Assembly (NCBI RefSeq): GCF_030691135.1
Contig: NZ_JAUYFA010000085.1
Location: 124,001-188,000 of the forward strand
Length of the DNA stretch: 64,000 bases
Direction: 5' to 3'
From: Phreatobacter sp.
GTDB lineage: Bacteria > Pseudomonadota > Alphaproteobacteria > Rhizobiales > Phreatobacteraceae
A program made the position numbers and the translations under genes. The notes beneath the pieces are model-generated. The model worked only from the letters and a program-made list of their open reading frames with translations. It did no database searches and was not told the origin of the DNA. Below are positions 32,619 to 39,280 of this stretch, in pieces (the first letter of the stretch is position 1; each line of letters starts with the position of its first letter).

Positions 32619-32825
32619 TCACAGGATCGGGCGCTGCGCGAAATCCCTGTCGTAAAGCGTGAAGAGTCCCGCGTCATCCTGGCCGGGAAAGATGATCTTC
32701 TGGCCGGCCGGGATCCGCCGGTGATCCATCTTCATACCGGCGGCGACGTCGACCTCCTCGCGGCTCTTCGGATGGAAGGCCCGCCTCTGCCGCAGCGGGC
32801 AGGCGTGGCACCTCGGATGGGCCAT
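32619..32825 (-). pseudogene. Truncated Crp/Fnr-family regulator
   Basis: The 68-residue frame begins like FNR-type regulators: CHACPLRQRRAFHP followed by EEVDVAAGMKMDHRRIPAGQ and IIFPGQDDAGLFTLY, the start of the cyclic-nucleotide-binding fold. It then ends abruptly after GLFTLYDRDFAQRPIL. The rest of the sensor domain, the dimer helix and the helix-turn-helix are missing, and I found no continuation in the other frames downstream. It is best read as a decayed regulator. Confidence 0.6.
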
Positions 32826-32908
32826 GGACCGGGTCGGCGGATGGTTCGGCATGACGCTCCTGCGGTTCTGGTTGTCGACGCGCGAGCCCAGCCTCTCGGC
32901 CCGGCCAC

Positions 32909-32934
32909 GGAACTCCGCTCCCCGTCATCGCGTT
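32909..32934 (+). promoter_or_regulatory. EcfG-type stress promoter for ABC gene
   Basis: GGAAC (32909-32913), 17 bases, CGTT (32931-32934), no mismatch, about 88 bp before the ATG at 33022. It lies just upstream of the divergent Crp/Fnr remnant. Confidence 0.72.
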
Positions 32935-33021
32935 CCCTGCTGCGCCTTTTCCATACGTCCTGCCGCCGTCCTCGGGATCGCGACGACAGGGGGGAGAGGG
33001 GATGATCCTCCGGAATGCCTC

Positions 33022-34818
33022 ATGAACACGACGCCAGACGAACCCGCCGAGACCCCGATCCGGTCGCGATCACGCGCGTTCTTCGCCATGGCGCGGGGGT
33101 TCTGGACCGGCCCTTCGGCACGGCGGGCCTGGCTTCTGACGATCGTCGTCCTCGCCTTCGCCTTCGCCCAGATCGCCGCCCAGGTCGGAATCAACGGCTG
33201 GAATCGCCTGTTCTTCGACGCGCTCGAGCGAAAGGACGTCGGCGCTGTCGTCACGACGGTCAGCCTCCTGCCGCTGCTGCTCGGCGTCGCATCCTTCACC
33301 ATGTCGGGCCTGGTCGTCTCGCGCATGCTGTTGCAGGTGCGCTGGCGCGAATGGCTGACCAACAAGCTCGCCGGCTGGTGGATCGCCGACCAGCGCTACT
33401 ATCGGCTCGGCTTCCTGGCGACGGAACATTCGGCCCCGGAGTTCCGCATCGCCGAGGATGTCCGCATCTCCACCGAGCCGCTGGTCGAATTCGCCATCGG
33501 GCTCATCTCGGCTGCCGTGACGGCGCTGACTTTCGCGGCGATCCTGTGGACCGTCGCCGGCTCCATCACCTTCGAGGTCGCCGGTCGAACGGTCTTCATT
33601 CCCGCCTATATGGCGATCGCCGCCGTGGTCTATGCGGTCGTCGCGTCGCTGGCGGCCTATTTCGTCGGCCGCGCCCTGGTCGGCAAGGTCGCCGACAAGA
33701 ACGAGACCGAGGCGCTCTTCCGTGCCGAGATGACGCGGCTCCGCGAGAACGCGGAGAGCATTGCCCTCATCAAGGGCGACGCCGACGAGCGGGCTTCGGT
33801 GCGCGACACCTACAGGAACGTCGTGGTGGCCTGGATGGCGGTCGTGCGGCGCCAGGGTTTCCTCGCCCTCGTGCTGAACACCAACGGCGCCCTGTTTCCC
33901 ATCGTGCCGCTGCTGCTGGCCGCCCCGAAATACCTGTCCGGCGACCTGTCGCTCGGCGCCGTCATGCAGGTCGCCGCGGCCTTCAGCGCCGTGCAGGCCG
34001 CGCTGATCTGGTTCGTCGACAACTTCGTCCGTCTCTCCGAGTGGTATGCCTCGGTGGTGCGCGTCGACGAATTCGCCCAGACGCTGGAAGAGGTCGACAT
34101 CGGCGCCATCATGGAGGACGAGCAGCAGATCCAGCTCGGCGAAAGCGACGACGACGCCATCCACATCGACAATCTCTCCCTCGCCCATCGCAACGGCCGC
34201 ATCGTCATCGACGACGCCTCCATCCGCATCGAACAGGGCGAGAAGGTGCTGATCGCCGGCGAGAGCGGAACCGGCAAGAGCACGCTCATCCGGGCTCTTG
34301 CCGGCCTCTGGCCCTGGGGTTCCGGCCGGATCGCCTTCCCGAAGAATGTCCGCTACGCCTTCGTGCCGCAGAAGCCCTACATGCCCCGCGGCACCTTGAA
34401 GGACGTGCTTCTGTACCCCGAATCGGATGCGCCGGTCACAGAGGACGTCATTCGCGCCGCCATGGCGCGCTGCGGCCTCGACTACATGGTCAAGCGGCTC
34501 AACGAGGAGGACGACTGGGACCGCGTCCTCTCCGGCGGCGAACGCCAGCGGGTCGCCTTCTGCCGCCTGCTCATCCACCGGCCGCCCATCATCATCATGG
34601 ACGAGGCGACGGCGGCACTCGACGAGGGCAGCCAGGACAGCCTGCTCTCGCTGTTCGAGAAGGAGCTCGCGGGATCGACGCTGATCAGCGTCGGCCACCG
34701 CCCCGGCCTCGAGGATTTCCACACGCGGAAAGTGACGCTCGTCCGCCGCCCGGCCGGCGCGCACATGCAGTCGAGCCCGCTGCGGAAGTCGCTGTGGAAG
34801 CTTCTGGCCAATCCGTGA
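33022..34818 (+). CDS. SbmA/BacA-type ABC transporter, membrane and ATPase fused
   Basis: The 598-residue protein joins an ABC_membrane_2 (SbmA/BacA, YddA) domain with about six helices in residues 30-330 to an ATPase domain. Walker A is GESGTGKST at 413-421, the signature LSGGERQR starts at 503, Walker B is IIIMDEATAALDE near 524, and the switch His is in SVGHRPG. Relatives take up peptides or very-long-chain acyl compounds; BacA in rhizobia protects against antimicrobial peptides. The start is placed at MNTTPDEP because upstream sequence in frame has no match. It has a perfect EcfG promoter. Confidence 0.9.
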   Translation: MNTTPDEPAETPIRSRSRAFFAMARGFWTGPSARRAWLLTIVVLAFAFAQIAAQVGINGWNRLFFDALERKDVGAVVTTVSLLPLLLGVASFTMSGLVVSRMLLQVRWREWLTNKLAGWWIADQRYYRLGFLATEHSAPEFRIAEDVRISTEPLVEFAIGLISAAVTALTFAAILWTVAGSITFEVAGRTVFIPAYMAIAAVVYAVVASLAAYFVGRALVGKVADKNETEALFRAEMTRLRENAESIALIKGDADERASVRDTYRNVVVAWMAVVRRQGFLALVLNTNGALFPIVPLLLAAPKYLSGDLSLGAVMQVAAAFSAVQAALIWFVDNFVRLSEWYASVVRVDEFAQTLEEVDIGAIMEDEQQIQLGESDDDAIHIDNLSLAHRNGRIVIDDASIRIEQGEKVLIAGESGTGKSTLIRALAGLWPWGSGRIAFPKNVRYAFVPQKPYMPRGTLKDVLLYPESDAPVTEDVIRAAMARCGLDYMVKRLNEEDDWDRVLSGGERQRVAFCRLLIHRPPIIIMDEATAALDEGSQDSLLSLFEKELAGSTLISVGHRPGLEDFHTRKVTLVRRPAGAHMQSSPLRKSLWKLLANP

Positions 34819-34871
34819 GGCCGCCTCAGCGGCGGTGCGCCGCCGAGACGCGCAAAGCCTGCCGCGGGAAG

Positions 34872-34896
34872 GGAACCGAAGCCGGGAACGGACGTT
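34872..34896 (+). promoter_or_regulatory. EcfG-type promoter with no protein gene directly after it
   Basis: GGAACC (34872-34877), 15 bases, CGTT (34893-34896), i.e. GGAAC-N16-CGTT without mismatch. Transcription would start near 34903 and meet an intrinsic terminator at 34944-34970. The next ATG is at 35035, beyond the terminator. Confidence 0.78.
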
Positions 34897-34902
34897 GTTC
34901 CC

Positions 34903-34970
34903 CCGATCATCGCTTGCCCTTCCCGCGATGTGGACCTCTCACTGAAGCCGCCTATGGCGGCTTCTTTTTT
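34903..34970 (+). ncRNA. Candidate EcfG-dependent small RNA, GsrN-like layout
   Basis: This is a predicted transcript of about 68 nt between an EcfG promoter and a terminator. It can fold into a 5' hairpin with stem CATCGC (34908-34913)/GCGATG (34925-34930) and an 11-nt loop TTGCCCTTCCC, then a single-stranded linker, then the terminator hairpin. The C-rich loop is the kind of sequence that pairs with G-rich ribosome binding sites. In Caulobacter the stress sRNA GsrN is also driven by the EcfG-type sigma factor and uses a C-rich loop; whether this RNA is a homologue is my inference. No open reading frame of note lies inside. Confidence 0.6.
34944..34970 (+). terminator. Perfect intrinsic terminator of the sRNA candidate
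   Basis: GAAGCCGCC (34944-34952) pairs perfectly with GGCGGCTTC (34956-34964) around TAT, followed by six T (34965-34970). It is 125 bp after the ABC gene stop, so it can serve that gene as well. Confidence 0.92.
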
Positions 34971-35034
34971 GCCCCGTCGGCGGCCGTCGGATAGGGTTCG
35001 GCTCGCGATCCGCGGCACAGGACGACCATTCGCC

Positions 35035-35916
35035 ATGGACCTTCACGTTCGCCATGTCACCACCTACCGATATGCCGGAGCTGTCCAGTTCGGCCCGCAC
35101 AAGCTGATGCTCCGGCCGCGGGACAGCTTCGACATGCGGATCCTCGACACGCAGATCGAGATCTTTCCGCGGGCCGAGCTGCACTGGTCGCACGACGTCT
35201 ATGGCAACACCGTCGCCGTAGCGACCTTCGCCGACAAGGCCGACCGGCTGGAGATCACCAGCGGGCTCGTGCTGCGCCGCTACGCCTCGGCCTTCCCGCG
35301 CGGGCGCACCTCGGCGAGCGCCCTGTTCGTTCCCCACTATGCCGACGGCGAGCGCATCGTCCTGCAGCCCTTCATGACGCCGGCCACCGGCGACGACGAG
35401 GGCGTGCTGGCCGCCTGGATCGCCGAGGTCCTGTCGCAGGGCGCCGCCGACGAGGACCCGCTGGCACGCCTGTCCCGCCATATCCATTCCGGCTTCGGCT
35501 ATTCCGTCCGGTTCGAGGAGGGGACGCAGGCGCCGTCCCGGACCCTGTCGGTCCGGTCGGGGTCCTGCCGCGACCTCGCCTGGCTCTTCATCGAGGCCGT
35601 GCGGCGCCTCGGCTATGGCGCCCGCTTCGTCAGCGGCTATCTTCACAACAGCGCCAACGACGATCCGTCGAACCGGGCCGCGGTCGGGTTGACCCATGCC
35701 TGGGCCGAGGTCTTCGTTCCCGGCGACGGATGGGTCGAGTTCGATCCGACCAACGCCCTGGTGGCCGATCCCCACCTGATCCGCGTCGCGGTGGCGCGGG
35801 TGCCCTGGGATGCCTCGCCGGTGGCGGGTAGTTTCGTCGGGCCCGTCGGCGCGCAGATCAGCCTGTCGGTGGGCGTCGACATCGCCAGCACCCAGACCTA
35901 TTCGAACGTCGCCTGA
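35035..35916 (+). CDS. Transglutaminase family protein with N-terminal beta domain
   Basis: The 293-residue protein has the bacterial transglutaminase-like N-terminal region (HVTTYRYAGAVQFGPHKLML) and a catalytic core with Cys178 in SVRSGSCRDLAWL, His221 in GLTHAWAEVF and Asp237 in WVEFDPTNA, so the triad is intact, unlike the protein at 31559. Such genes often travel with other stress or peptidoglycan genes. The start is at MDLHVRHVTTYRY, as in relatives. It is convergent with the kinase-like gene, with 13 bp between the stops. Confidence 0.9.
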   Translation: MDLHVRHVTTYRYAGAVQFGPHKLMLRPRDSFDMRILDTQIEIFPRAELHWSHDVYGNTVAVATFADKADRLEITSGLVLRRYASAFPRGRTSASALFVPHYADGERIVLQPFMTPATGDDEGVLAAWIAEVLSQGAADEDPLARLSRHIHSGFGYSVRFEEGTQAPSRTLSVRSGSCRDLAWLFIEAVRRLGYGARFVSGYLHNSANDDPSNRAAVGLTHAWAEVFVPGDGWVEFDPTNALVADPHLIRVAVARVPWDASPVAGSFVGPVGAQISLSVGVDIASTQTYSNVA

Positions 35917-35929
35917 CGGCCTGAACCGC

Positions 35930-37579
35930 TCAGAGCGGCACGTCCCAGCGGCCGACGCTCGTCCCGGCCGCATCTTCCGTCCGTGTCGCACCGATCTGCC
36001 GAAGGAGGCCGAGGCCGATCTTCGTCTCCACCGCGCCCATGCGGCGGTCGTCGGTGATGACGGAGAGGATGAGATGTCCCGCGCGACCGCAGGTGATCTC
36101 CACCGCCACATGGTCGGCATGACCATCCTGCATCGCGTGGGATGCGATCTCGACGACGAGCAGGCCGAGAGGGATGGCCCGGTCGACGACGAGCGCGACA
36201 TCCTCGGGCGCGACCGCCGAGATCCATGGCCTGCCCGCCTGCATCAGGCCGTTCAGCATGCCGCAGACTTCGTCGAGGAACGGCCTCAGTTCGACCGGGC
36301 GCATCTCGCCCAGCGCCAAGGCGTGACGATAGGCGCTCGACAGCACCTGCACCTTGGCCTCGATCGCGGCGAGAACCGGCCGATGCGCGGCGTCCTGCTG
36401 CCGGCGCGCCAGACTGATATAACTCTGTACCACCTGCAGGCTATTCTTCACGCGGTGGTGCAACTCCCGCACCAGGTGGCGGTTGGCGCCGATGGTGAGG
36501 TTCAGTTTCTCCACCCGCTCGGCCTGGTCGGTGACCAGGGCGTTGAAGGCTTCCGACACCCGCCGCATGTCGTCCGGCATGGTCGGCTCGACCGGCGCGA
36601 GCCGTGGCTGCTGGGACGCCCGTGCGACCGCAGCCGCTTCGATGCCCCGTATCCAGCGGACGATGTTCGAGTCGATCGCCAGCGAATAGACGGCGAAAAG
36701 CACCGTCAGCGTGACGAGGGGCGTCAGCAGGAGGGCGATGAACTGCAGGAAGGCCGCCCGTTCGGCCTGCTGGTCGAAACGGGCGAGAACATAAAGATCG
36801 GGCTCCGCCACCAGCTGCGAGCCGTAGGTCGCGGTCATCCCGGACCGGCTGGCGGAGACCCATCTCTGGAGCTGTGGACCGCTGCGCCCTTCGACCGGCA
36901 GCCAGCTCATGTCGTCCTCGTTGACGCCGCGGGCCACGACCACCTCCGATGAATCGCGCACGATGCCGACGGTGACACCGGGATTGACGGTTCCGAGGTC
37001 GAAGGCGCGATCGATGATGTCGGCGCTGACCAGCAGCAGCGATTCCATCACCTGGTTGTGCGGTCCGTTGGCGCGCCTGGCATAGATGACCATGAACCGC
37101 CGCGCGCCGAGCAGGATCACGCCGTAGCTGGTATCGGCGAGCTCGGCGCCGATCCAGGTCGCGGTGCGTGTGCGGGTGCGGTAGGTCTCGATCACCCCGC
37201 GGATCTCCTCCGCCGAGACGATGTCGTCCTGGCTCGCGCTGCAGCCAGGCCTCTCGCCCGCCCGGATGGCAATGGCACTGACGCCGAGATTGTCGCCGAC
37301 GATGCGGCGAGCGATGGCGAGGCATTGCTCCGCTGAAGCGTCGACGGCTGCGACGCTGGCCGTCGCCGCCAGCACGACGCGGAGCGACTCCCGGTACCAG
37401 ACGCGGGTCCTGACCGCGAAGTGTCCGACCGTCTGCAACTGGGACGCCTCGATCGAGGACAGGACCGAGCGATAGGTCGCCACCGCCGTCACCGCCGTAA
37501 TCACGGCGATGGGAACGATGACGAGGACCATCAAGGCGAGAAGGCGGCCCCTGACGGTGCGGAATGCGGTGACGTTCAT
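35930..37579 (-). CDS. PhyK-like HisKA_2 sensor kinase with unusual ATPase domain
   Basis: The 549-residue protein has an N-terminal membrane helix (12-34), a periplasmic sensor region (about 40-270), a second helix (about 278-300), a linker, and a HisKA_2 dimerisation domain with H-box ELHHRVKNSLQVVQSYISLA, His375. Proteins with this box phosphorylate PhyR in the general stress response. The ATPase part is atypical: the N-box position reads EIASHAMQDG (477-486) without the usual Asn, and the G1 box reads ITDDRRMG in place of DxGxG, though IGLGLLRQI keeps the G2-like pattern. It lies 5 bp after ecfG, so it is the third gene of the nepR-ecfG operon. It may be a weak kinase or a phosphatase. 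Confidence 0.85.
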   Translation of the reverse strand: MNVTAFRTVRGRLLALMVLVIVPIAVITAVTAVATYRSVLSSIEASQLQTVGHFAVRTRVWYRESLRVVLAATASVAAVDASAEQCLAIARRIVGDNLGVSAIAIRAGERPGCSASQDDIVSAEEIRGVIETYRTRTRTATWIGAELADTSYGVILLGARRFMVIYARRANGPHNQVMESLLLVSADIIDRAFDLGTVNPGVTVGIVRDSSEVVVARGVNEDDMSWLPVEGRSGPQLQRWVSASRSGMTATYGSQLVAEPDLYVLARFDQQAERAAFLQFIALLLTPLVTLTVLFAVYSLAIDSNIVRWIRGIEAAAVARASQQPRLAPVEPTMPDDMRRVSEAFNALVTDQAERVEKLNLTIGANRHLVRELHHRVKNSLQVVQSYISLARRQQDAAHRPVLAAIEAKVQVLSSAYRHALALGEMRPVELRPFLDEVCGMLNGLMQAGRPWISAVAPEDVALVVDRAIPLGLLVVEIASHAMQDGHADHVAVEITCGRAGHLILSVITDDRRMGAVETKIGLGLLRQIGATRTEDAAGTSVGRWDVPL

Positions 37580-37584
37580 CGCGC

Positions 37585-38145
37585 TCAGGTACGTGCCATA
37601 TCCGCGGGAGATTGATGGGTGACGGCGACCGTGTTCCGGTCCGGTCCGATCTCGTCGACACTGGTGATCCCCAGCAGATCGGCGAGCTTGGCACGGGCCC
37701 TGTTGACGCGGCTCTTGATAGTTCCGACGGCGACGCCGCAGATCTCGGCCGCTTCTTCATAAGAGAGGCCGCTGGCGCCCACCATGATGAGGACTTCGCG
37801 GTGCTCCTCCGACAGCTTGGCGAGGGCGACGCGGAAATCGGCGAGGTCGAGCGCGCTTTCCTGTTCGCCCGAGACCGTCAGGCGCTGGGCATAGGTGCCG
37901 TCGCTGTCCTGAACCTCGCGGCCGCGCTTGCGATAGAGCGAGTAGTAGGTGTTCCGCAGGATGGTGAAGAGCCAGGCCCGCAGGCTGGTGCCCGGCTGGA
38001 ACTTCTCCGAATTGCCCCAGGCCTTGAGCATGGTTTCCTGAACGAGGTCGTCGGCCTGCTGCACGGAGCCGCAGAGCGACACCGCGAAAGCTCGCAGGTT
38101 GGACAGTTCGGCGATGAGGCCCTCGCGGAATTCGTCACTGGCCAT
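37585..38145 (-). CDS. ecfG: EcfG, general stress response sigma factor
   Basis: The 186-residue ECF sigma factor has region 2 (LCGSVQQADDLVQETMLKAW through WLFTILRNTYYSLYRK) and region 4 (LSEEHREVLIMVGASGLSYEEAAEICGVAVGTIKSRVNRAR), with wording typical of the EcfG group. It directs RNA polymerase to GGAAC-N16/17-CGTT promoters when released from NepR. It overlaps nepR by 11 bp and precedes the kinase-like gene by 5 bp. The upstream promoter is itself of EcfG type, which predicts positive autoregulation. Confidence 0.96.
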   Translation of the reverse strand: MASDEFREGLIAELSNLRAFAVSLCGSVQQADDLVQETMLKAWGNSEKFQPGTSLRAWLFTILRNTYYSLYRKRGREVQDSDGTYAQRLTVSGEQESALDLADFRVALAKLSEEHREVLIMVGASGLSYEEAAEICGVAVGTIKSRVNRARAKLADLLGITSVDEIGPDRNTVAVTHQSPADMART

Positions 38146-38332
38146 CGCGCCGCTCCTTCGCTTCGAGCTCGGCGAGCAGCACGAGGAAGCGATCGGGAAC
38201 CGGCGCCTGGATCAGGTCGTCGTAATGGGCCTTGAGCGACTTGCCGATCGCCTCCTGGATGCGCGGGTCGAGGACGATGTCCGCCGCATCCTTGTCCTCG
38301 CTCTTGTCTTCGTGGTCCGGCATCTCACCCAT
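38135..38332 (-). CDS. nepR: NepR anti-sigma factor
   Basis: The 65-residue protein carries the NepR signature: RIQEAIGKSLKAHYDDLI followed by APVPDRFLVLLAELE, two helices that clamp EcfG. An acidic tail precedes it. Phosphorylated PhyR sequesters NepR and frees EcfG. AGGGAG lies six bases before the ATG at 38332 (MGEMPDHED). It overlaps ecfG by 11 bp, so anti-sigma and sigma are translated together. Confidence 0.95.
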   Translation of the reverse strand: MGEMPDHEDKSEDKDAADIVLDPRIQEAIGKSLKAHYDDLIQAPVPDRFLVLLAELEAKERRDGQ

Positions 38333-38379
38333 CGAGCTCTCCCTACACGCCTCGTGAGCGCGCGCCTGATCCAACCCAG

Positions 38380-38482: not shown

Positions 38483-39280
38483 ATGACAATCGCTGCGGAA
38501 ATCGCACCGCATCTCCCCTATCTGCGCCGCTTCGCGCGGGCCCTGAACGGCACGCAGGCCGGAGGCGATTCCTATGTCGTCGCCACCCTCGAGGCACTGG
38601 TCGCCGACCCCTCGACCTTTCCCCGCGGCGTTCCCGCCCGCATCGCGCTTTATCGCATCTTCCTCAAGCTGTGGTCGTCCATGCCGGTGAACATGGCCGC
38701 GGCCCGGGGCGGCGGGGCGCGTCAGGGAGCGGTCGAACGCAACCTGGAAGCGCTGACGCCGCGGCCGCGCCAGGCCTTCCTGCTGCGGACCGTCGAAGGC
38801 TTCGCTCTCCAGGACGTCGCGGCGGTCCTCGACGTCGACACGGAGGCGGCGGCAGCGCTGGTGGAACAGGCTGGTCGCGAGATCGCCGAGCAGGTCGCCA
38901 CCGACGTCCTCATCATCGAGGACGAGCCGATCATTGCCCTCGACATCGAGACCCTGGTCCAGGAGCTCGGCCATTCGGTGACCGGCATCGCCCGCACCCA
39001 CAAGGAAGCCGTGGCGCTGGTCAAGCAGAAGCGTCCGGGTCTCGTCCTCGCCGATATCCAGCTCGCGGACGGCTCGTCCGGCCTGGAGGCTGTCGCCGAG
39101 ATCCTCGAGACCATCGATCTGCCGGTCATCTTCATCACCGCCTATCCCGAGCGGCTGCTGACCGGGGACCGGCCGGAGCCGGCCTTCCTGATCACCAAGC
39201 CCTTCCAGCCCGAGGCGGTGAAGGCGGCGATCAGCCAGGCGCTGTTTTTCGATCGTCGCTCGGAGCGCAAGGTCGCCTGA
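38483..39280 (+). CDS. phyR: PhyR, anti-anti-sigma response regulator
   Basis: The 265-residue protein has an N-terminal ECF-sigma-like domain (residues 1-135; APHLPYLRRFARALNG is the region 2 mimic, LTPRPRQAFLLRTVEGFA the region 4 mimic) and a C-terminal receiver domain with EDEP (146-149), the phosphorylated Asp191 in LVLADIQLADGSSG and Lys239 in TKPFQPE. On phosphorylation it binds NepR and frees EcfG. AGGAG precedes the ATG. It is divergent from nepR-ecfG, the usual arrangement. Confidence 0.97.
   Translation: MTIAAEIAPHLPYLRRFARALNGTQAGGDSYVVATLEALVADPSTFPRGVPARIALYRIFLKLWSSMPVNMAAARGGGARQGAVERNLEALTPRPRQAFLLRTVEGFALQDVAAVLDVDTEAAAALVEQAGREIAEQVATDVLIIEDEPIIALDIETLVQELGHSVTGIARTHKEAVALVKQKRPGLVLADIQLADGSSGLEAVAEILETIDLPVIFITAYPERLLTGDRPEPAFLITKPFQPEAVKAAISQALFFDRRSERKVA

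Follow-up and report, generated by a model that had tools for sequence, protein, structure and literature searches.

Within the general stress response locus of a Phreatobacter sp., a promoter of the EcfG type is followed by a short hairpin and a strong intrinsic terminator just ahead of a transglutaminase gene. This raises the question whether the stretch encodes a small RNA of its own or belongs to one of the neighbouring genes. A preliminary description, made from the sequence alone, had proposed that EcfG drives a small RNA next to the stress genes. Comparison with related genomes strongly supports this proposal by conservation, synteny and promoter spacing, and the stretch of ~68 bases very likely encodes a genuine small RNA induced by stress.

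Organisation of the locus

The analysis is based on a contiguous stretch of 64,000 nt, in the following called the window. Judged by the protein domains encoded there, the neighbourhood is a general stress response locus. Relevant features are listed below.

32824-34818, + strand: ABC transporter reading frame, upstream, SbmA/BacA-like (ABC_membrane_2 / SbmA_BacA / ABC_tran)
34872-34876, + strand: -35 element GGAAC of the EcfG-type promoter
34893-34896, + strand: -10 element CGTT of the EcfG-type promoter, 16 nt spacer after GGAAC
34903-34970, + strand: predicted small RNA of about 66-68 nt, based on fold and conservation in 8 Phreatobacter genomes
34908-34930, + strand: 5’ hairpin CATCGC/GCGATG
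34933-34939, + strand: invariant single-stranded linker GACCTCT, candidate seed
34944-34970, + strand: intrinsic terminator with a perfect 9-bp stem, a 3-nt loop and six T
34930-35916, + strand: transglutaminase reading frame as listed, downstream (Pfam Bact_transglu_N, Transglut_core)
35930-37579, - strand: HWE/HisKA_2 histidine kinase of the stress locus
37585-38145, - strand: ecfG, general stress sigma factor (Pfam sigma-70 regions 2 and 4, PhyR_sigma2)
38135-38371, - strand: nepR, anti-sigma factor (PF18557), with its own EcfG promoter at 38404-38380
38483-39280, + strand: phyR, response regulator (PhyR_sigma2, PhyR_sigma-like, Response_reg)

The true start of the transglutaminase gene is likely the ATG at 35036, and the gene is possibly reached by read-through from the small-RNA promoter. 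The sequence ATGTGGACCTCT within the RNA (34928-34939) resembles this gene start (35036-35045), which reads ATGGACCTTC here and ATGGACCTCTTC in two relatives (G004 and G011). The likeness may be fortuitous or go back to an old duplication.

Structure of the predicted transcript

The mismatch-free promoter GGAAC-N16-CGTT, as claimed initially, is found at 34872-34896, and the hairpin and the perfect 9-bp terminator with six T described behind it are both in place. The 5’ hairpin consists of CATCGC (34908-34913), a pyrimidine-rich loop TTGCCCTTCCC (34914-34924) and GCGATG (34925-34930). The terminator stem covers 34944-34964 and is followed by the T tract at 34965-34970. The predicted 68-nt RNA folds with -25.7 kcal/mol (z = -4.8), a z that is presumably owed largely to the terminator. 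Conservation sets in at G34905 (GATCATCGC) and ends with the T tract, which agrees with the predicted transcript. Because of this onset the predicted transcription start probably lies within 34903-34905, and the proposed length of ~68 nt is best given as about 66-68 nt.

Over the -35 region, CGCGGGAAGG (34863-34872) is a perfect 10-nt inverted match to CCTTCCCGCG (34918-34927) in the loop and stem. The match is already altered in the related genome G002 and hence probably due to chance.

The strict EcfG motif occurs at 55 sites genome-wide versus 23 for a reversed control, so the promoter by itself does not settle the matter. A strong terminator within 150 nt of the promoter is seen at a single place in the window and in none of 300 dinucleotide shuffles. 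Genome-wide, a terminator follows 1 of the 55 strict sites, solely that of the small RNA. The other 54 have none, and some of them are located upstream of likely genes, including CsbD-like stress genes.

Conservation within Phreatobacter

Using DNA and covariance searches, the unit was found in 8 of 12 Phreatobacter genomes (G000 being the genome of the window). In all eight carriers it is located directly 5’ of the transglutaminase gene within the stress locus; phyR lies ~3.5 kb from the RNA in seven, and the contig of the eighth ends within the locus. G004 keeps the RNA and has no ABC gene at that place. The RNA is therefore not merely the 3’ end of the ABC gene.

The unit is absent from G003, G006 and G008, which with 74-78% PhyR identity form a more distant group. 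Behind the ABC gene these genomes show an EcfG-like promoter leading straight to the start codon of another reading frame (sites L074:6629, L075:6506 and L076:8240, in the order G003, G008, G006), which reads MSIASRPVLPLLSF... in G003 and G008. In the twelfth genome (G001), an assembly of 89% completeness, neither the unit nor PhyR was found, so that the absence is uninformative.

The -35 element reads GGAAC in 8/8 carriers, the -10 element CGTT (n=5), TGTT (n=2) or GGTT (n=1), always at a spacing of 16 nt. Apart from these variants elements and spacing are constant, whereas the spacer sequence is 19-88% identical across carriers. The RNA itself is 69-97% identical between species. Among the more distant carriers, three neighbouring genes are mostly 52-60% identical at fourfold-degenerate sites; for these pairs the values are 69-94% for the RNA and 19-69% for the promoter spacer. 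By this measure the RNA is under purifying selection.

The terminator is kept in all carriers and there is no conserved reading frame, as in a discrete non-coding unit. Conservation of the hairpin in relatives had been named beforehand as a check by covariance search; each of the eight genomes shows six standard pairs in the 5’ hairpin (6/6) and the same two-hairpin consensus fold, and 97.5% of the stem cells in their alignment keep the pairing. In the 5’ hairpin one pair has changed in a compensatory way, from C-G via U-G to U-A, and another has gone from A-U to G-U. The single doubly changed pair represents weak covariation (a value that 117 of 500 shuffles reach too). Since stem variation is too small, we base no argument on covariation.

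Searches outside the genus

The covariance model yielded weak matches only and nothing convincing outside Phreatobacter, neither in 397 genomes of the order nor in 385 genomes of the class; the two sets share a few genomes and each contains own or genus members, and the searches ran with a first-look filter that may miss distant relatives. Those of the best weak matches outside the genus that were inspected resemble terminators and lack an EcfG promoter. Rfam searches, at gathering as well as permissive thresholds, returned tRNAs and sub-threshold matches only, with no family for the RNA. A pattern scan of named genomes led to five contigs, all Phreatobacter or the same assemblies, plus one Pseudomonas match, which lies inside a UDP-glucose dehydrogenase-like gene and is a chance match. 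NepR-centred loci of 30 other genomes of the order (1.5 kb flanks) contain no pair of EcfG promoter and terminator with one weak exception, a match that runs into a coding frame. Hence no positional equivalents were found in these 30 genomes.

In four weak model matches from other families of the order (L046, L052, L053 and L055) a terminator is preceded by a GTTTGACGCCTCCCTGTT-like motif. These four seem to represent a different, widespread small RNA family.

Evaluation of alternative explanations

We consider it probable that the unit is a stand-alone, EcfG-dependent regulatory RNA of about 66-68 nt, which probably acts in trans via its unpaired pyrimidine-rich stretches. The main rival follows from the start of the transglutaminase gene ~40-100 nt past the terminator: the unit might be the 5’ leader of that gene, whereby partial or signal-dependent read-through of the terminator would set gene output. 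Consistent with this, the transglutaminase gene follows directly in 8/8 carriers, its ATG always within that distance of the T tract, and G005 and G010 have hardly any room for a separate promoter. However, no antiterminator is apparent. If the 3’ arm of the terminator is left out, the remaining fold amounts to ~-6 to -12 kcal/mol, mostly owing to the first hairpin, as opposed to ~-20 to -27 kcal/mol for the full fold in 8/8 carriers. That the 5’ arm finds no strong alternative partner speaks against a classical attenuator. Moreover, both sequence and length are poorly kept between terminator and ATG, a leader would have no obvious use for the conserved single-stranded linker, and partial read-through would also fit a small RNA. 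We thus regard the leader as rather unlikely, keeping in mind that both roles are not mutually exclusive. The terminator could also serve the transcript of the upstream ABC transporter, whose gene has the same orientation and ends at 34818, with the EcfG-like motif and the hairpin being incidental. A bare promoter motif is indeed not rare, but the absence of the promoter-terminator pair from the shuffles, the joint conservation of promoter and RNA, which extends to G004 without the ABC gene, and an RNA conservation far above neutral sites leave this very improbable; it is largely refuted by conservation. Hardly credible at all is an encoded micropeptide, e.g. ATG TGG ACC TCT CAC TGA at 34928. 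An ATG behind a CCGCG stretch is present in most carriers, yet the frame varies: it meets TGA after five codons in G000 and is open in G007 and G005, TAG is the second codon in G010 and the ATG is shifted in G011.

The RNA could further be an ortholog of GsrN from Caulobacter crescentus, diverged past sequence recognition and acting with its loop on katG and other stress genes. GsrN likewise has an EcfG-type (SigT) promoter, an intrinsic terminator and a 5’ hairpin, whose exposed loop is C-rich as it is in 7/8 Phreatobacter carriers but not in G011, and is located near ecfG-nepR-phyR in most Caulobacteraceae (PMC5869019), comparable to the ~3.5 kb between the Phreatobacter RNA and phyR. Promoter, proximity to the stress locus and an exposed pyrimidine-rich loop are also the criteria by which GsrN-like RNAs in Rhizobiaceae were proposed (Tien et al. 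2018, PMC5869019). In contrast, the lengths differ (about 68 nt versus about 106 nt), and the most conserved unpaired part of the Phreatobacter RNA is the linker after the hairpin. Predicted katG duplex energies are no better than shuffles in 5/6 genomes (the exception reaching 3 of 100), and two of the eight carriers, G004 and G011, have no katG match. BLAST matches of GsrN were reported solely in Caulobacteraceae (PMC5869019), and the Phreatobacter model gave no convincing match outside Phreatobacter in the 385 class genomes, a sample that may or may not include a GsrN carrier. Orthology is therefore improbable. The functional counterpart of GsrN suggested by the preliminary description is supported by promoter type, position and pyrimidine-rich loop only, with no Rfam match, no relative outside the genus in the genomes searched and no sign of katG pairing. 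The RNA resembles GsrN in wiring, namely in promoter type, locus and loop.

Unpaired elements and putative targets

The C-rich loop had been put forward as the key element. It is C-rich in all carriers but G011, where it reads CACUUUCC and the C run is lost. The most conserved unpaired element is instead the linker GACCUCU, identical in 8/8 genomes and unpaired in the consensus structure; in single-sequence folds of some carriers (e.g. G007) it takes part in weak extra pairing. Its complement AGAGGUC is Shine-Dalgarno-like, and both linker and loop resemble anti-Shine-Dalgarno sequences. That both are kept unpaired is as expected of base-pairing RNAs. Pairing with ribosome binding sites is inferred from this likeness, as it was proposed for AbcR and MmgR (PMC7143759).

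From these features we infer the following course. PhyR would free EcfG from NepR, and RNA polymerase with EcfG would then transcribe the small RNA. The transcript would end at the intrinsic terminator, leaving a U tail that would suit Hfq. The GACCUCU linker foremost, and the CCCUUCCC loop second, may bind to purine tracts of the Shine-Dalgarno type in target mRNAs, which would reduce their translation during general stress.

The prediction of targets by pairing with ribosome binding sites, suggested with the original proposal, was unsuccessful: no conserved target emerged, with ntrC, katG and the stress-locus genes all failing. In a search with the seed complement AGAGGTCC before ATG, most sites inspected were not at gene starts. 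The start of an ntrC-like response regulator gene (AGAGGTCCACATG; L085, G000:C109:14412-15474) is perfectly complementary to the RNA linker over 12 nt; in G000 this match spans Shine-Dalgarno sequence and start codon, and near-matches occur in G007, G009 and G002. As a conserved target it was rejected, the match being lost in G005, G010, G004 and G011. Genes of the stress locus showed no consistent pairing above shuffles.

Relation to other small RNAs

In Sinorhizobium meliloti, 23 small RNAs with sigma-E2 motifs were described, eight intergenic regions having microarray support (PMC3616915). The RpoE2-dependent RNAs of this species are likewise preceded by a motif of the general stress sigma factor (PMC3616915, PMC7143759); the Phreatobacter model yields no convincing match outside the genus among the 397 order genomes. 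MmgR/suhB (RF00519) and AbcR share with it a short length, a hairpin and an unpaired CU-rich, anti-Shine-Dalgarno-like motif (PMC7143759) but have another type of promoter. The Rfam model of suhB (RF00519) scores 17.1 bits, below the gathering score of 41.

Taking these comparisons together, the best reading is a new, genus-restricted EcfG-driven small RNA; EcfG-driven small RNAs as such are already known. To our knowledge, GsrN is the one well-studied small RNA of the general stress response in Alphaproteobacteria, and outside Caulobacteraceae there are mainly candidates based on promoter or proximity. No small-RNA work on Phreatobacter was found in the literature searched. The RNA described here is a candidate with strong comparative support and offers a defined, mutable candidate seed, GACCUCU. 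Its apparent lack of sequence relationship to GsrN allows asking whether stress loci recruit small RNAs repeatedly. Tentatively, it could be a genus-specific core stress RNA that arose in place 5’ of the transglutaminase gene and silences a set of mRNAs at stress onset via GACCUCU as anti-Shine-Dalgarno seed, an idea that we regard as possible and no firmer than that. If true, EcfG loci would repeatedly and independently gain non-homologous small RNAs.

Around the locus, the relaxed motif GGAAC-N15-18-CGTT occurs at ten sites, located within 26158-49077, versus 1.2 expected in the window. This cluster likely marks general-stress genes.
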